From NCBI GenBank assembly GCA_016930365.1, contig JAFGGY010000124.1:1-43522 (forward strand): 43,522 nt of DNA. The letters run 5' to 3'. The translations under genes and the position numbers were made by a program. This stretch comes from Prolixibacteraceae bacterium (GTDB lineage: Bacteria; Bacteroidota; Bacteroidia; Bacteroidales; Prolixibacteraceae). This document shows, piece after piece, positions 7,641-35,234 of this stretch (position 1 is the stretch's first letter; each line of letters starts with the position of its first letter). Below the pieces are notes generated by a model that was not told the DNA's origin, ran no database searches, and worked only from the letters and a program-made list of their open reading frames with translations.

Positions 7641-8117
7641 TTATTCGAGCCTTTTTAATTCTCCTTTATAAGATATGGTTACCCATTTTGGACTTATCGT
7701 TACTATACTCATTGTTATATAGCCATCGTTCCGAATCGTTAGCTCAAAACTTATTCCATCAGAAGCTCTCTGAGTTGAAGATAGTTTAACTTCAACCTGC
7801 TTCCTGCCTTCAACAAGCTCCTTATTATAATAAACACCTTCGTACTTAATTACTCCTATTCTGTTTTTCACTTTGTAGTGAAGGTTTACAAAAACAGAAT
7901 CGCCTTTAATTTGAAAATAATTTTGAGCTTCGGGTATTGCTTGCCAGGCTGTGTGTTCACCTACACTAATAAAACTCTCGGGAACGAATTTGTATTTATC
8001 CTGTTTGACAATGCTTTTGTTATTCTCGAAATTCTGTTTTAATTCTTTTTTTGATTGAGCATTTATAGTGGTAAAACTAAGTAATGCTATTGCAATTAGG
8101 AAAAGCTTCGTTTTCAT
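7641..8117 (-). CDS. Unrecognised small exported protein
   Basis: A 158-residue protein with a clear Sec signal peptide: KTK, a hydrophobic core at 5-15 and likely cleavage after TTINA at residue 20. The mature part begins with a charged helical stretch (SKKELKQNFENNKSIVKQDKY) and continues as alternating polar/hydrophobic segments typical of beta strands, ending WVTISYKGELKRL. I do not recognise a named family; it loosely recalls small secreted Bacteroidota proteins of the DUF4251 type, but key features do not match well enough to assign it. The next gene upstream on the same strand also encodes an exported protein, and a MITE-like repeat separates the two, so co-transcription is uncertain. 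Confidence 0.75.
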   Translation of the reverse strand: MKTKLFLIAIALLSFTTINAQSKKELKQNFENNKSIVKQDKYKFVPESFISVGEHTAWQAIPEAQNYFQIKGDSVFVNLHYKVKNRIGVIKYEGVYYNKELVEGRKQVEVKLSSTQRASDGISFELTIRNDGYITMSIVTISPKWVTISYKGELKRLE

Positions 8118-9611: not shown

Positions 9612-9649
9612 TTAATAAAACTATTATTCTACAAAAGTAGTTAATCTAT

Positions 9650-9791
9650 ACTAATAGTTCGTTACTATTTTTTATCTCATTGACAATGTGTTGTTTGTGT
9701 TTTGATAATTTAACTTTCTAAATTACTGATATTTAATTTATTACAAAACAAAGCCTAATATCTCATGTCTATTATCTGATGTACGATTGTA
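9650..9791. repeat. MITE-like dispersed repeat, copy C (reverse orientation)
   Basis: About 142 bp, starting CTAATAGTTCGTTACTATTT and ending ATCTGATGTACGATTGTA. The interior has CATTGACAATG, TTTGTGTTTTGATAATTTAAC and TACTGATATTTAAT, the family core in reverse complement. It lies upstream of the Crp/Fnr gene, with the probable promoter at 9631-9639 just outside its edge. Confidence 0.8.
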
Positions 9792-9991
9792 TACAAAACA
9801 ATTGTATATTAGGCATGTTAATATTTCTCTTTGCACCAACCATTAATCAATGAAACAATATTATCGATCTTTTTTCAATTTTTTTAGCTTATAACGTTGA
9901 AGTTTTTCTTCGCACTTGCTGACAACTAAAGATTAAAAAAACCCTCACCAACGAAAAAAGCATCTTTAGCAGGAAAAATTCACTGAAAAAA

Positions 9992-10023
9992 TTTCTTTCA
10001 CCAGAAAAAACTATTATTTTTGC
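9992..10023 (+). promoter_or_regulatory. Candidate rpmH promoter
   Basis: The -7 element TATTTTTGC at 10015-10023 matches TANNTTTGY. TTTC at 9992-9995 lies 19 bases upstream in the -33 position, one base off TTTG. It predicts a leader of about 125 bases. The stretch 9792-9991 before it is A/T-rich with nothing else recognisable. Confidence 0.55.
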
Positions 10024-10137
10024 ACTCCGTTTTTCGGGAGTTTTAGAAAGCTGAAACCACGAAACACAAAAAAGTCAGCACGTTATGCTGCATAAGATAT
10101 TAATTTGTTGAATAAGACGATTACGGGTAAACCGTAA
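10024..10137 (+). promoter_or_regulatory. Structured rpmH leader with three hairpins
   Basis: Three short hairpins can be read: ACTCC/GGAGT at about 10024-10041 followed by TTTT, CAGCA/TGCTG at 10076-10080 and 10086-10090, and TTACGG/CCGTAA at 10121-10126 and 10132-10137. The last is 17 bases before the rpmH ATG. Autoregulation by L34 or attenuation is an inference only. Confidence 0.4.
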
Positions 10138-10154
10138 CTAAAAAATCAAATACG

Positions 10155-10313
10155 ATGAAAAGGACATTTCAACCTTCGAACAGAAAAAGAAAAAATAAGC
10201 ACGGTTTCCGCGAGAGAATGTCAACGGTTAACGGTCGCAAAGTTGTAAAAGCACGACGTGCCAAGGGAAGAAAAAAATTAACTGTTTCTGACGAGCCTCG
10301 TCACAAACGTTAA
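10155..10313 (+). CDS. rpmH: 50S ribosomal protein L34
   Basis: A 52-residue, very basic protein read directly from the bases: it starts [19 protein letters not shown] and ends DEPRHKR. The N-terminal half ([19 protein letters not shown]) and the core [18 protein letters not shown] are the universal L34 signature. L34 is the smallest protein of the large subunit and binds 23S rRNA. The C-terminal tail [10 protein letters not shown] is the short extension seen in Bacteroidota. In many bacteria rpmH sits beside dnaA and rnpA near the origin; neither is present here. A strong terminator follows at 10338-10382. Confidence 0.97.
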
Positions 10314-10337
10314 GAGAGATAATAACTTTTTCATAAC

Positions 10338-10382
10338 ACACAACAAGGCGAAGAACTCCGGTTCTTTGCCTTGTTGTGTTTG
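10338..10382 (+). terminator. rpmH intrinsic terminator
   Basis: A 19-bp stem (10338-10356 with 10361-10379, one G-U pair, tetraloop TCCG) followed by T residues. Its end overlaps a GTG at 10376 that could be mistaken for the start of the nuclease gene. Confidence 0.85.
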
Positions 10383-11219: not shown

Positions 11220-12173
11220 TTAGTCCATCCCAAACGAGAAACTTGATATCTCGTAATCGTTGGTTGAGAATGTGTTCTTTTTGTTCCAATCGACACTGGT
11301 AACAGTCATTATACTCGACGATTTATCCTCCTTCGAGAAATTTTCGGCACGAATAATCATGCCTTCGAAGGCGGTGGTTGAAAAATTACCAATCCACGAA
11401 ACCTCTTTCATGTTTTCATTAAAACTAACATCTTTGGTTGTCCACAGCACATCAATTTCGGTATCGGTTTCGCAACGGTACTCCTGGCATTTAAACCCGC
11501 TAATGGTTTTGGTTTTACCGGTTTTTACCGGTTTACATTCATCCTCTTCCTCATCCATACCATAGGTAAAGGCATCCAATGGCACGGTTACATTTTCAGC
11601 AATACTGTCGGGGTTATCGATATTAACCTTTGTGGCAACGCCGCTTTTTTCCCCGTTATTGTTGGTTAAAATTAACATGCAAGCGTTGCTGTTGTCTATA
11701 ATGGTTATGGCTTGTTGTCCATCGCCATTTACTACAATCATTACATCTTCGTTTTTCTCGTTAACAGCCATTACCGTTTCGACCTTCGGAGCAACTTTAC
11801 CGTCGGATTCGGTCGATTCGGTAAGGGTTACAATTTCGGATGTAAAATCATAGCTGTCTTTAAAATCGATGGCTTCGGTTGAAATTCCAATGGCACTCAT
11901 CAGTGCTGAAGCGCGTTTTGAATCGGAGCTTTTAGAGCTTGCTTGTTTTTCTTCTTGGGGTTCAACAGCAGCGGAGTCACTTTCCAGCACTTCATCAATG
12001 GCTTTATTCACCTGCTTATCTACTTCTTCCTGAACCTCTTTAGTGGCTCTCTTTTCGGCCGATCGTTCGGCTTGCCTTACTGCTTCGCGTGCCAAACGGT
12101 CGAGAAACTGTGCCTGACCCGTAACCACTGTAAACATTAACACGCTTGTTAATACTACAAATATTCTACTCAT
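11220..12173 (-). CDS. DUF4412 domain-containing exported protein
   Basis: A 317-residue protein with a Sec signal peptide (hydrophobic 4-18, probable cleavage after TGQA near 21). A charged helical and probably coiled-coil segment spans about 25-80, rich in Ala, Glu, Lys and Arg. The rest is a beta-rich domain with KTGKTKTISGFKCQEYRCETDTEIDVLWTTKD-type sequence, where two cysteines flank the ISGFKC turn. This matches the DUF4412 family of Bacteroidota, whose function is not known; members look like LolA/LolB-type lipid carriers by fold, which I state as a guess. A candidate -7 element TAACTTTGA lies at 12203-12211 on the minus strand. It stands alone between a terminator and a sensor kinase. 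Confidence 0.8.
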   Translation of the reverse strand: MSRIFVVLTSVLMFTVVTGQAQFLDRLAREAVRQAERSAEKRATKEVQEEVDKQVNKAIDEVLESDSAAVEPQEEKQASSKSSDSKRASALMSAIGISTEAIDFKDSYDFTSEIVTLTESTESDGKVAPKVETVMAVNEKNEDVMIVVNGDGQQAITIIDNSNACMLILTNNNGEKSGVATKVNIDNPDSIAENVTVPLDAFTYGMDEEEDECKPVKTGKTKTISGFKCQEYRCETDTEIDVLWTTKDVSFNENMKEVSWIGNFSTTAFEGMIIRAENFSKEDKSSSIMTVTSVDWNKKNTFSTNDYEISSFSFGMD

Positions 12174-14619: not shown

Positions 14620-14812
14620 ATCAATAGTACGTTAAATTTTAGTACCCCAGCCGCTATGCGGCATATTCATAGTTCTAACATTAGCGAGTTAGATAAAAGA
14701 CATGAGACAATAGACCTGTAATAAGTTGGATATCAGTAATTTATATGAACAAACATGGCAAAACACAAACAACTCGAGGTCAGCAACATAAAAAAAAGTA
14801 ACGAACTATTGG
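14620..14812. repeat. MITE-like dispersed repeat, copy D with internal module
   Basis: About 193 bp, starting ATCAATAGTACGTTAAATTT and ending AGTAACGAACTATTGG. It has the family core (GACATGAGACAATAGAC, GGATATCAGTAATTTA, CAAAACACAAACAA). An extra block of about 57 bases at 14641-14697 (AGTACCCCAG to AGATAAA) is also found in copy F. Positions 14813-14937 hold nothing recognisable. Confidence 0.8.
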
Positions 14813-14937
14813 AAATAAAACGTCGTGGAAATATATCAACTCATTATCAATGTTTTAGAAGATGCAAACAAACTATTATTTTGGTAACTTGATGTTACAA
14901 ATAAAAGGAATGAATGAGCTTTTTATTGAGCAATATA

Positions 14938-15461: not shown

Positions 15462-15502
15462 AAACATAAGACAAAAGACTTGTTTGCAATATGCTAAGTA
15501 TT
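15462..15502. repeat. Fragment of the MITE-like repeat, tandem with copy E
   Basis: ACATAAGACAAAAGACTTGTTTGCAATATGCTAAGTATT repeats the centre-left block of the element. It stands immediately before the intact copy E, a head-to-tail arrangement like the fragment preceding copy D. Confidence 0.5.
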
Positions 15503-15641
15503 TACAATAGTACGTTAGATTATAGACATGAGATATTAGACTTTTGTTTGCAATAAATTTAATATCAGCAATTTAGATAGTTAAATTATGAAAACACAGG
15601 CGACTCATTGTCAATGACTTAAAAACAATAACGAACAATTA
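15503..15641. repeat. MITE-like dispersed repeat, copy E
   Basis: About 139 bp, starting TACAATAGTACGTTAGAT and ending AATAACGAACAATTA. It contains GACATGAGATATTAGACTTT, TTAATATCAGCAATTTAG and CTCATTGTCAATGACTTAA. It is the simplest complete form in the window. It abuts the stop codon of the tryptophanase-family gene at 15643. Confidence 0.8.
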
Positions 15642-17562: not shown

Positions 17563-17807
17563 TTCAATAAATACGTTAGATTTTAGTACCCCACCCTCTT
17601 TGCGGCATATTCATGGTTCTAACATTATCGAGTTAGATAAAAGTATTCCAGCCGCTCATGGTTCTAACGTTCGAGAGTTAGATAAAAGATATAAGAAAAT
17701 AGACGTTTTGAATGTAACAAGTTAAATATCAGCATTAAATAGCCAAATTATCAAAACACAAACAATTCATTGTCAATGGCTTAAAAAATAGCAACGAACT
17801 ATTGTAA
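17563..17807. repeat. MITE-like dispersed repeat, copy F with duplicated internal module
   Basis: About 245 bp, starting TTCAATAAATACGTTAGATT and ending AGCAACGAACTATTGTAA. The extra module of copy D occurs here at about 17585-17642 and again, shortened, at about 17643-17686 (AGTATTCCAG to AGATAAA). The family core follows (GTTAAATATCAGC, ATCAAAACACAAACAATTCATT, CATTGTCAATGGCTTAAAAA). Its end lies about 17 bases from the stop codon of the permease gene. Confidence 0.8.
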
Positions 17808-17824
17808 TTCACAAACAAAGCATA

Positions 17825-19117
17825 TTACAAAAAGAAATTCGCAATAAACAATACAGCCAACACCCACATTACAATCGAAACGTCTTTTAAACGTCCCGAC
17901 AATGCTTTCAGGAATACAAACGAAAGAATTCCAAATACAACACCTTCGGCAATGCTATATGCAAACGGCATCATCACAATGGTAAGAAATGCCGGGATAG
18001 ACTCGGTATAATCGTCGAAATTTATTTTGAGCACAGGCGACAACATAAACGAACCAACCAAAATAAGGGCAGGTGCGGTTGCAGCTCCGGGTACCATTAA
18101 GAATAAGGGAGCAAGAAACAAGGCCAGGAAAAACATACCGGCTGTGGTGAGCGAAGTAAGGCCGGTTTTGCCACCCTCGGCAACGCCCGAAGCACTTTCG
18201 ACATAGGTTGTTACAGTACTGGTTCCCAATATTGAACCTACGGTGGTGCCAATTGCATCGGCAAATAGCGCCTGCTTAACTCGCGGTACGCGCCCTTCTT
18301 TATCGAGCATATTGGCTTTGGATGAAACACCCACCAAGGTTCCTACGGTATCGAACATATCGACAAAGAGGAAAGTAAACAGCACAATCAGCATGTCGAG
18401 CGTAAAAATTTGCGAGAAATCGAATTTAAAGAAAATAGGTTCGAGCGATGGCGGTGCCGACAAAACGCTCCCTTCGGGCCAAATGGTAATTCCCATCGGT
18501 ATGCCAACAAGCGTTGCCACAAAAATACCAATAAGCAGGGCGCCACGCACCTTTAAAGCAAGCAACACCCCGGTAAGAATTAAACCGATGGCTGCCACCA
18601 GCACTGTGGGCGAACCCATATCGCCCAGTCCAACCAAAACCGAATCGTTGTTAACAATCAACCCGGCATTTTGCATGCCGATAAAAGCGATAAACAAACC
18701 AATACCCGCCGAAATGGCGTGTTTTAGATTTATTGGAATGGCATTTACAATTATTTCGCGAATATTAAACAATGTAAGCAGCAGAAATATAATTCCTTCG
18801 AGAAAAACAGCCGTTAAAGCAAACTCCCAACTGTAACCCATACCGAGCACAACAGTAAAGGCAAAGAAAGCATTCAGCCCCATACCCGGAGCCAGGGCAA
18901 AAGGCAGTTTAGCCCACAAGGCCATTACCAGGGTAGCCACCACCGCCGACAAAGCAGTAGCAGTAAAAAGTGCATTTTTATCCATGCCCGTTTCACTCAA
19001 AATATTGGGGTTAACCGCCAAAATGTAGGCCATGGTCATAAACGTGGTAATCCCGGCAACAACTTCGGTTTTAACCGACGTTTTATTCTTATCCAAATTG
19101 AAAAACTTTTTAAGCAT
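17825..19117 (-). CDS. NCS2 family purine permease (AzgA/PbuG type)
   Basis: A 430-residue inner-membrane transporter with a dozen or more hydrophobic segments. The AzgA-like signatures are the opening KTEVVAGITTFMTMAYILAVNP, then FALAPGMGLNAFFAF near 72-86, DMFDTVGTLVGV at about 252-263, and the TSTVTTYVESASGVAEGGKTGL loop. Relatives import hypoxanthine, guanine, adenine or xanthine with protons. The gene starts 12 bases after the stop of a Tsx-like DUF5020 gene, so the pair likely formed an outer- plus inner-membrane purine/nucleoside uptake operon. It is intact although its neighbour carries an internal stop. Specific base preference cannot be read from sequence. Confidence 0.93.
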   Translation of the reverse strand: MLKKFFNLDKNKTSVKTEVVAGITTFMTMAYILAVNPNILSETGMDKNALFTATALSAVVATLVMALWAKLPFALAPGMGLNAFFAFTVVLGMGYSWEFALTAVFLEGIIFLLLTLFNIREIIVNAIPINLKHAISAGIGLFIAFIGMQNAGLIVNNDSVLVGLGDMGSPTVLVAAIGLILTGVLLALKVRGALLIGIFVATLVGIPMGITIWPEGSVLSAPPSLEPIFFKFDFSQIFTLDMLIVLFTFLFVDMFDTVGTLVGVSSKANMLDKEGRVPRVKQALFADAIGTTVGSILGTSTVTTYVESASGVAEGGKTGLTSLTTAGMFFLALFLAPLFLMVPGAATAPALILVGSFMLSPVLKINFDDYTESIPAFLTIVMMPFAYSIAEGVVFGILSFVFLKALSGRLKDVSIVMWVLAVLFIANFFL

Positions 19118-19129
19118 ACGATTTACTTT

Positions 19130-19813
19130 TTAATTAAACGTCCATTTGGCACCCACGGTTGGAAACACATTGAATCCGGGCATTGTACCAAAGTTATAGC
19201 TCAACTCCACTTCGGTACCCAGCGAAAATTTCTGGTTGAAATTATACCACAACTGGGGCTCGGTTATAAACACATAATTTGCCTCCTGAAAGTCAGCCAC
19301 AAATCCATCGTTCGAAACAGTATGCTTTTCTTTCCAGAAATCGGCAAAACCGGTAAACGACACTTTGTTATTCAGCAAATGAAGATACCAAACAGCCGTA
19401 AGCTGAAAATTATGAGGCTCATCATTCTTCTGAATGTGCTTGTACATAGCTGAAAATGATACGCCTTTTGTAAAATCAGCAGCATTCCACGAATAGGTTC
19501 CTCCAAGCAAATAAGCATTGTTTATCGAGAAGCCTGTGCCTAAGCCTCCATTGTACTCAACATGAACCGAAATCGGGCCGTTCCATTTTTTCAACTCGCG
19601 GGCAATTTCCCAGTAAGCTTCGATGGGACCGTTGTCGCCGTAATTAAAATCGACAAAGAAAAATGTGCTTCCGTAAGCATCGGGTGCAAATTTTTCGATG
19701 GTTGAAGTTAGATAGTTCCGATCGGAACTAAAATCGTAATGCAACTGTAGGTTTTAAGATTTTGCCAGCACCGATACTACTACCAGCATCACAACTAAAG
19801 TAATTCGTTTCAT
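19130..19813 (-). pseudogene. DUF5020 (Tsx-like) outer-membrane protein gene with an in-frame ochre stop at the signal-peptide boundary
   Basis: From the ATG at 19813 the frame reads a signal peptide (MKRITLVVMLVVVSVLAKS), then TAA at 19756-19754, then continues without frameshift as NLQLHYDFS and a further 200 residues to 19130. A single C-to-T change from CAA (Gln) would explain the stop, and Gln is what such a cleavage site usually carries. The remaining protein is beta-strand rich with aromatic strand ends (YVFITEPQLWYNF, YNFGTMPGFNVFPTVGAKWTF), as in the nucleoside channel Tsx/DUF5020 family. A TTG at 19744 could start an open frame but would yield a form without a signal, unfit for the outer membrane. 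The purine permease follows after 12 bases. Recent mutation and sequencing error are both possible. Confidence 0.75.
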
Positions 19814-19911
19814 TTAAAAATAATTTTAGGGCATCGGCAACATCTTAATCGTCCAAATAAGCCGAGTTAACCAATGCTTGTTCGTAAAATTCAGAATCGT
19901 GTATTTGGCTC

Positions 19912-19920
19912 GCAAAAATA
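19912..19920 (-). promoter_or_regulatory. Candidate -7 element for the DUF5020-permease operon
   Basis: The minus strand reads TATTTTTGC, matching TANNTTTGY, 98 bases before the ATG at 19813. A TTG lies 16 bases upstream, closer than the usual 19. No purine riboswitch fold was recognised in the leader. Confidence 0.45.
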
Positions 19921-19933
19921 TTCGTTCTTTTTA

Positions 19934-20593
19934 CTACAATATATGATCAATGACATGGTTTAGGTAATGATTTAGGGGAGTTATTTTTCGAAAACCCGAA
20001 ACTACAATATTCAACATATCGGGGCTTAAAAGCTCCTCGTCGCTAAGGTTCATCATGGGCGAAAAGGATTTGTACCTCAACAAATCGATGTGTTCAAAAT
20101 CTTTTGGAAAACCTTTGGGAGCTATTTTCAGCTTATCACCATCGAAAAGCGTAAACATCCGGATAAACGCTTCATCTTCTAATATTTCGAGCAAATCGTA
20201 AGGGTTTTGGTAAATATCGTTTCGTATGGCTTTAAGCCTTGGCGCGTCGGGCATAAAGAGACCGCCAGCAATGAAAGAAGCACCGGGTTGTATGTGAAAA
20301 TAATACCCCGAATTGCCTCCTTTCCGTCCATCGCGGGCTATAAATGCGCCAAAATTGTTTTTATACGGAAGCTTGTCTTTTGAAAAACGCAAATCGCGAA
20401 AAATACGAAAAACACATTTTCGGGGATCCTGATATGGAATTTGTTGATCGAACGACCGGATTTCGTGAATCAGTAACTCGGTAATTTGCAAAAACTTTTG
20501 GCGCATTTCCTGATAATTTTCCCGGTTTGCATCAAACCATGCCTTGTTATTATTCGATTGAAGTGTTTCTAAAAAACGTAATATTTCTTTCAT
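19934..20593 (-). CDS. DUF2461 family protein
   Basis: A 219-residue protein of the DUF2461 (TIGR02453) family. Its signatures are the opening LRFLETLQSNNNKAWFDANRENYQE, the central RIFRDLRFSKDKLPYKNNFGAFI at about 63-85, and GYYFHIQPGASFIAGGLFMP at about 96-115, ending in a helical region. No signal peptide or transmembrane helix, so cytoplasmic. The biochemical role is not established; no catalytic motif can be named with confidence. It is upstream of the DUF5020 gene on the same strand, but a candidate promoter (19912-19920) separates them, and it is divergent from the PHP phosphatase gene. Confidence 0.9.
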   Translation of the reverse strand: MKEILRFLETLQSNNNKAWFDANRENYQEMRQKFLQITELLIHEIRSFDQQIPYQDPRKCVFRIFRDLRFSKDKLPYKNNFGAFIARDGRKGGNSGYYFHIQPGASFIAGGLFMPDAPRLKAIRNDIYQNPYDLLEILEDEAFIRMFTLFDGDKLKIAPKGFPKDFEHIDLLRYKSFSPMMNLSDEELLSPDMLNIVVSGFRKITPLNHYLNHVIDHIL

Positions 20594-24664: not shown

Positions 24665-25846
24665 CTATTTCGCAATCCAGTCTTCGGGGTTTAGTTTTAC
24701 ATTTTCGCGCCATACCTGGAACTTCAGTATGGTTTTATCGTCATCATCCTTATCGACAAAGATAAGGCCGATGTCTTGTTTTACATCAAGCTCGTCACCT
24801 TGTTTTACATAAACCTCGGCCAGGTTTGAATATACACTGATGTATTCGCCATGCCTTATAATTACTGCGGTATTACCACCCGGTACAGCAAATACACGAC
24901 TAACCGTTCCTTTAAAAATTGAACGGGCTTTTTCACCCGGACGAGTAGTAATGTCGACCCCATTATTATTTACAATTATATTCTTCAAAACCGGGTGAGC
25001 ATGTTCACCAAAACGATCGGTAATGATTCCGTTTTCGGTAGGCCATGGGAAACGCCCCTTGTTCTTGGCAAAATTATCAGATGTAAGTTGATATTCAGGC
25101 GTTTTGGTCATTTCGCGGCTTTTGCGTGCTTCTTCCTCAATAATACGTTGAATTTCTTTATCCAAACGTTGAGCAATTGTTTGTTGATATTGCAGATGCT
25201 CTTTAAGCTCGCGTTGCCGTTTCTGTAGTTGGCTGTATGTAGCATTTTGCTCCTTCTTACTGTTTTTGAGCAACGAAATTTCCTGCATTTGCTGCACCAA
25301 TACCTCTTGTTTCTCTTCGCGCTGTTCGTTTAACTCCATATTTTTTTGTTGAAGCACCAATTGTAAAGCCTCAATTTGTTCAAGTTGCTTTTGCCGGTGT
25401 TGGGTCATTTGCCTGATATACAGCAAACGCTTGTAGGCCTGGTTAAAAGTCTCACTCGAGAGTAGAAAAACCAGCCGGTTATAGTCTCCACGTTTTCGGT
25501 AAGCTTGCTGAATCATTCGTGCATAGTCGCGCCTTATTTTTTCAAGGTCGCTGTTCATCATTTGTATTACACTCCGGTTTTCGTCAATCGACGATTGCAG
25601 CAGGTTAATTTGGGTATTGTAATCCCGAATGAGTTCTTCCTGAAGTTTAATTTGCTCGTTAATTAACGCCAGACGGTTAATGGTGGCCTTACTGGTTTTC
25701 CCGGTTTTTTCGAGCAAACGGTTGGTGTATTCAATTTCTTTTTGTGTTTTGTCTTTTTTCTCGCGCAATTCATTAAGTGTTTGTCCGTTAAGCGATATAA
25801 CAACAAACAAAAACATGCATACCGATATGTATAGTTTCTTCTTCAT
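24665..25846 (-). CDS. EnvC-like murein hydrolase activator (coiled coil plus degenerate M23 domain)
   Basis: A 393-residue exported protein: signal peptide 1-21, an extended coiled coil at about 22-250, then an M23/LytM-like domain at about 265-390. The metal-binding positions of active M23 peptidases are lost: NNNGVDI replaces HxxGxD-type HNGIDI, and LKFQVW replaces LHFEIW. This is the state of E. coli EnvC, which has no peptidase activity but activates amidases at the division site. It starts immediately after the DUF4292 stop codon (TAAATG), so translation is coupled. It is the last gene of the dut-TPR-DUF4292-EnvC run. A role in daughter-cell separation is inferred from the family. Confidence 0.88.
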   Translation of the reverse strand: MKKKLYISVCMFLFVVISLNGQTLNELREKKDKTQKEIEYTNRLLEKTGKTSKATINRLALINEQIKLQEELIRDYNTQINLLQSSIDENRSVIQMMNSDLEKIRRDYARMIQQAYRKRGDYNRLVFLLSSETFNQAYKRLLYIRQMTQHRQKQLEQIEALQLVLQQKNMELNEQREEKQEVLVQQMQEISLLKNSKKEQNATYSQLQKRQRELKEHLQYQQTIAQRLDKEIQRIIEEEARKSREMTKTPEYQLTSDNFAKNKGRFPWPTENGIITDRFGEHAHPVLKNIIVNNNGVDITTRPGEKARSIFKGTVSRVFAVPGGNTAVIIRHGEYISVYSNLAEVYVKQGDELDVKQDIGLIFVDKDDDDKTILKFQVWRENVKLNPEDWIAK

Positions 25847-34466: not shown

Positions 34467-35234
34467 TTAATTGTTCAGAAAAAGCTTTCTGAAAATAATC
34501 CAACCAGCAATTAGAAGGAATAATCCTGCAATATAAACATAAGGAAATGGCACTGTAGAACTCTCTCCATATAAGTTCATTACAACATTTACACCAGGAA
34601 AACCTATTGACGTAAATGTTGTTGGTTCAGAAATGGCACAATCGCCTGCAGATAAATATGATGGTGAAGATTCTCCGGAATTATTAGAACCAATAAAGAA
34701 ACTGTTTCCTATACTTTGTCCATCAGGCGTAAATATTTCTACAACAAGTATTTTTTCCGAAGTTACCAAAACTGGTTCGGTAAGTTGCATTTCGAATAAG
34801 GAAAGAGTCTGATCGGATACGGAAAAAGTTTCGGTATAAAGTAGAGTAAGGTTTGACCAGTTGAAGCTACCATCTAAAGTGTAGAAATTAGCAACTATTG
34901 GTTGGCTACCCGAAGAACCTGAAGCAGTTTCTATCCCAATTTCTAAACGGTTAATTAAAAAGTTGGATGTAATACTAAAGTCATTTGCCAGATCAAAAAT
35001 TCTAAAATACGAATTATCTGCATGAAGATTACCAGCATTGCAAGAAACCGAATTGGCTGACATAATCACATTACTCGGAGAATGCGTTATTTGTATTTCT
35101 CCTGGATCTGAAAGTTGCTGATTTATACTTGATGTTGCACCAGGTGCAAGACCCGATTTTTGAAAAGAGTGCTGTGCTTGACTGGTGAAAAAACTAAATA
35201 TACAGAATAATGCTAAAAGAGATATTGATTTCAT
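34467..35234 (-). CDS. Exported protein with a C-terminal membrane anchor, probable sorted surface protein
   Basis: A 255-residue protein with a Sec signal (cleavage likely after SQA, residue 20). A beta-sandwich domain at about 50-225 (YFRIFDLANDFSITSNFLINRLEIGIETA..NFYTLDGSFNWSNLTLLYTETFSV..LVVEIFTPDG..SSPSYLSAGDC) is like the domains that in other Bacteroidota precede a type IX sorting domain. Here the type IX domain is replaced by a short Pro-rich motif (VPFPYVY), one hydrophobic helix at about 230-248 and a basic tail FRKLF. This three-part ending resembles PEP-CTERM-type sorting signals handled by exosortases, but the exact motif is not one I can name. A simple membrane anchor is the alternative. 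Single-gene unit; no sortase gene nearby. Confidence 0.75.
   Translation of the reverse strand: MKSISLLALFCIFSFFTSQAQHSFQKSGLAPGATSSINQQLSDPGEIQITHSPSNVIMSANSVSCNAGNLHADNSYFRIFDLANDFSITSNFLINRLEIGIETASGSSGSQPIVANFYTLDGSFNWSNLTLLYTETFSVSDQTLSLFEMQLTEPVLVTSEKILVVEIFTPDGQSIGNSFFIGSNNSGESSPSYLSAGDCAISEPTTFTSIGFPGVNVVMNLYGESSTVPFPYVYIAGLFLLIAGWIIFRKLFLNN

Follow-up and report, generated by a model that had tools for sequence, protein, structure and literature searches.

The 43,522-nucleotide stretch of DNA analyzed here (the window) originates from an uncultured bacterium of the Prolixibacteraceae type of Bacteroidota and probably carries a very recent nonsense allele of a single-copy gene for an outer-membrane channel of the DUF5020 family. 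The ancestral codon for the glutamine that forms the N-terminus after cleavage by signal peptidase I would have been converted into a stop codon by one substitution, and translation from the ATG at 19813 would give the 19-residue leader alone. A restart at a TTG at 19744 could at most yield a leaderless barrel, which would be stuck in the cytosol. The outer membrane would consequently lack the channel, and polarity may lower the expression of the downstream permease gene, which is intact. This reading is based on the DNA sequence of one genome of the species, from which we infer that the stop is genuine and not an error of the consensus, what the channel transports and that the protein is lacking. 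Taken by itself, this is a recent pseudogene of an ordinary kind, or else an artefact of the draft genome, and it falls in a family already known.

The interrupted reading frame

The ATG at 19813-19811 on the minus strand marks the start of a leader of 19 codons with the sequence MKRITLVVMLVVVSVLAKS, which is followed at codon 20 by an in-frame TAA (19756-19754, minus strand). Past this stop, 207 further codons are open in the same frame, up to a terminal TAA at 19132-19130 (minus strand). Base shuffling of the post-stop stretch gave no open version in 2000 trials, so this long open frame is not due to chance. Start, leader and reading frame are shared with the intact relatives of the gene. 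The preliminary description of this DNA had stated that the ATG at 19813 opens a signal peptide, that a TAA at codon 20 separates it from the mature part and that more than 200 codons are open beyond the stop; all of this was confirmed, including every coordinate. The features of the region are as follows:

19757-19813, minus strand: signal peptide (leader), codons 1-19 of the DUF5020 gene, aligned with the leaders of intact relatives
19754-19756, minus strand: in-frame TAA, codon 20, at the Gln position (+1 after signal peptidase I) of the relatives; from translation, alignment and profile scan (which reports "1 TAA")
19130-19753, minus strand: mature part, 207 codons and terminal TAA; DUF5020, predicted Tsx-like outer-membrane beta-barrel of about 12 strands (PF16412, AlphaFold2, Tsx match)
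19130-19744, minus strand: longest ORF remaining after the stop (ORF list), 204 amino acids, leaderless, with a possible TTG restart
17825-19117, minus strand: NCS2-type permease (Xan_ur_permease), intact (PF00860, 3.5e-47)
19934-20593, minus strand: DUF2461/TIGR02453 gene, intact, upstream; a conserved neighbour (profile match and neighbour comparison)
19913-19920, minus strand: putative Bacteroidetes -7 element TATTTTTG (pattern match only)

The putative promoter element was recognized by means of what we take to be the Bacteroidetes -7 consensus, and a pattern match of the same kind is also found upstream of the DUF5020 gene in an intact sister (L031). The sequence just upstream of the start codon (19814-19933) exists in one copy in the genome and contains a coding-looking single frame with its own TAA; this stretch is probably a 5′ leader.

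The ancestral codon

For comparison, the window's own locus (L001) was removed from 110 loci, leaving 109 coding sequences and thereby 96 distinct relatives. All 96 carry Gln at the junction of leader and mature part. In the very column of the TAA, Gln is present in 88 of them (49 CAA and 39 CAG), and the remaining eight have the sequence A-Q-T-N with Gln one column earlier. The earlier proposal of a single nonsense change at a Gln codon is therefore borne out by the comparison with relatives.

According to two publications, most exported proteins of the Bacteroidetes follow a Q-rule, with Gln directly after the signal peptidase I site (PMC5837995, PMC10653852). The relatives resemble such proteins with N-terminal Gln or pyroglutamate in having this residue at +1 after the leader, whereas the window gene has a stop instead. 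In other exported proteins of the window, encoded at 7641-8117, 11220-12173, 24665-25846 and 34467-35234, inspection by eye also showed a Gln on or close to the probable cleavage site. The Q-rule explains why the stop lies at the boundary of leader and mature part, for which the preliminary description gave no reason: since a conserved Gln codon is one substitution away from a stop codon, a stop at exactly this place needs no special function. Moreover, 14 other codons of the window gene are likewise one transition away from a stop, so that a hit on the +1 codon, being one among about 15 such codons, is unremarkable. In more general terms, the Q-rule puts a codon that is one substitution from stop at a fixed place in most exported proteins of Bacteroidota, so that nonsense losses precisely at the junction of leader and mature part can be quite ordinary.

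Family identity and predicted fold

The mature part matches the profile of DUF5020 (PF16412) at positions 15-212 of 212 with an E-value of 3e-72 and 243.3 bits, the gathering cut-off being 36.7; in the genome-wide scan the match reached 247.8 bits over profile positions 2-212. The window copy thus shares with the family a near full-length domain match above the curated cut-off, but differs from the collected relatives in the stop at the junction, where none of them has one. With the TAA at codon 20, leader and mature part do not form an uninterrupted exported gene, and on the basis of its sequence we regard the window gene as a broken member of DUF5020.

An AlphaFold2 model of the mature part was computed from an alignment of 53 mature sequences, namely that of the window and 52 picked from 80 loci. 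The model (mean pLDDT 95.8, pTM 0.88) contains 13 strands, one of which comprises just 5 residues, giving about 12 barrel strands. The best structural match, as ranked with VIA-align 2 as the best of 999 re-aligned chains, was Tsx of E. coli (PDB 1tlw; Z 19.0, rmsd 3.0, 195 of 207 residues). The NanC/KdgM porins, PcoB and OMPLA rank below it with Z 14-16. When ranked by Foldseek E-value, KdgM and NanC stand above Tsx, which takes the fifth place. A single-sequence search of PDB chains yielded no match at E up to 1. Tsx and the predicted window model have the outer-membrane barrel fold in common, while the identity of the two proteins is just 12%. The preliminary description had called the protein Tsx-like, a label that is right at the level of the predicted fold.

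Because NanC/KdgM, PcoB and OMPLA also match at Z 14-16, the fold does not point to one particular substrate. Taken together, the modelled fold and the neighbouring permease suggest a channel by which nucleosides or nucleobases probably cross the outer membrane. Among the papers searched, DUF5020 turned up in a single one, on Staphylococcus ESS genes, where the number is seemingly unrelated. For this widespread and uncharacterised family, the predicted Tsx-like fold in combination with an NCS2 permease as neighbour represents a testable functional hint.

Distribution and gene loss in relatives

A DUF5020 gene is present in 124 of the 140 genomes examined from the same GTDB family, giving 127 matched rows. 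The 16 genomes with no match include some incomplete ones. Stops are present in two of the 127 rows, namely in the window (one TAA) and in a remnant in another genome (one TGA and one TAG), and in the 140 genomes, a gene of full length broken by one stop alone occurs only in the window. The remnant (G042, L130, C32, about 1600-1814) is a decayed DUF5020 gene that retains residues 1-49, covering the leader and the beginning of the mature part, followed by approximately residues 151-176 in another frame; judged from its sequence, it appears to be an older loss of the gene.

Within the genus, DUF5020 is missing beside DUF2461 in three of seven other genomes. These three (G001, G002 and G003; loci L115, L117 and L119), which are only 81-91% complete, contain DUF2461 with neither a DUF5020 gene beside it nor a match elsewhere. 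The sequence comparison thus indicates that the DUF5020 gene seems dispensable in the genus. The upstream neighbourhood at L115 is similar to that in the window.

Searches of the window's genome with the protein, the 5′ DNA and the family profile revealed no second DUF5020 copy. The gene is single-copy in this genome, with no further copy found that might replace its function.

Preservation and age of the loss

Apart from the stop, the gene is well preserved. Of 59 columns that are conserved in at least 90% of the sequences, the window keeps 57, departing from the conserved residue only at the stop and at a single G-to-S change; as many or more such misses are found in 43 of 97 sequences (the window counted). 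An alignment with relatives revealed no frameshift in the window gene. The earlier statement that the gene has no other damage consequently holds. When read through the stop, the gene scores 345 bits against a leader-containing profile and occupies the 44th place among the 127 rows.

The rate of protein divergence was compared with that of an intact sister (L002). The nonsynonymous distances of window and sister to five outgroups are 0.202 and 0.207, 0.200 and 0.201, 0.167 and 0.195, 0.236 and 0.249, and 0.232 and 0.245, respectively, with the window never exceeding the sister in any of the five comparisons. Since the protein has diverged no faster than that of the intact sister, little time seems to have passed since the loss. 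The time resolution of this argument is low and the age is only loosely bounded, because synonymous sites are saturated (pS 0.73-0.82 for the window against each of six relatives). On the evidence of these distances, the loss appears to be recent relative to the split from the sister. The core of the preliminary description, which offered a very recent loss or a sequencing error, is thereby supported.

Alternative explanations

The main rival is that the gene of the organism itself is intact and that the stop either reflects an assembly or consensus mistake in a draft of the metagenome type or comes from an allele of a minority strain. The genome is a draft of 216 contigs and is 88.9% complete, and the restriction of the damage to one codon is just what would be expected of an intact gene. 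On the other hand, random substitution errors rarely reach the consensus. In the same genome, none of 30 Plug and none of 49 ABC_tran matches contains a stop, so that there is no sign of false stops being frequent, and an inspection of the gaps of the window revealed no other broken frame. We therefore consider an artefact unlikely, at roughly one chance in five by our own estimate, and favor a genuine and very recent nonsense allele.

A further question is how such an allele came into being. The first base of the stop lies within an imperfect inverted repeat of 13 nucleotides, in which 19754-19766 (the stop included) pairs with 19836-19848 at 12 of 13 positions. The mutation might thus have been templated by template switching in the repeat (quasipalindrome correction) instead of being an ordinary transition. 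A repeat match of this quality is uncommon at the site, with at least 12 pairs in 3 of 400 resamples and at least 11 in 31 of 400. However, C-to-T is the commonest substitution and requires no template, one mismatch is left in the repeat, and the templated reading was formed post hoc. We consider it very improbable. It is at the same time compatible with a recent nonsense allele, as it concerns only how the mutation arose. We ascribe the inverted repeat to chance; at best it might have served as the template of the mutation.

The least probable explanation is a reversible or regulated switch, in which the channel is made conditionally, by means of an on/off allele of high frequency or by readthrough of the stop, for instance with a suppressor tRNA. 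The good preservation of the mature frame would fit such a switch, as would the arrangement of the inverted repeat, which contains the stop codon and flanks the start codon on both sides. The 5′ region also folds slightly better than shuffled versions (z -1.93), but in the intact sister the folding of this region is not out of the ordinary (z -0.29). The inverted repeat, for its part, was noticed post hoc, an equal match was obtained anywhere in the surrounding 301 bases in 23 of 500 resamples, and both arms contain TTAA, so that an inversion would retain the stop. There is no slippage tract at the stop. TAA is the ordinary terminator in the window, ending 30 of the 39 ORFs taken as genes, this one included. 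A search of the window with ARAGORN detected one tRNA-Phe. The literature search yielded no report joining a premature stop, a signal peptide and the outer membrane of Bacteroides with phase variation. For the phase-like polymorphism mentioned in the preliminary description, positive evidence is thus missing: slippage tract and second copy are absent, and the inverted repeat keeps the TAA in both orientations. Either form of switch must be viewed as highly improbable. Equally far-fetched at present is the idea that an outer-membrane channel is switched off at the +1 Gln codon in a way that is easily undone, perhaps with the help of template switching in the repeat. If true, this codon would be a standing one-step weak point of exported Bacteroidota genes, and its loss would not be a dead end. 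A recoding of TAA is likewise disfavoured, by the frequency of this terminator and by the Plug and ABC_tran matches, all free of stops.

Neighbouring genes

The NCS2 permease gene (PF00860) begins 12 bases downstream of the terminal stop of the DUF5020 gene, and this neighbour fits an uptake of nucleobases or nucleosides. In the genus, the permease is present in two of eight genomes, that of the window included. Among the loci checked, it adjoins DUF5020 only in the window, in G005 and in L004/L032. DUF2461 is located beside DUF5020 in five genomes (G004, G005, G006, G010 and G031). To regard DUF2461-DUF5020-permease as a conserved order would accordingly be too wide, given the limited adjacency of the permease.

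Related intergenic repeats occur between neighbouring genes at 14628-14815, 15493-15625 and 17572-17807. Examples are a pair of 72 nucleotides (14628 and 17572) with 92% identity and a 49-nucleotide unit that occurs four times. In addition, a small protein resembling rpmH (L34), named by eye, is encoded within 9612-10375, a gap in the list of ORFs of 60 amino acids.
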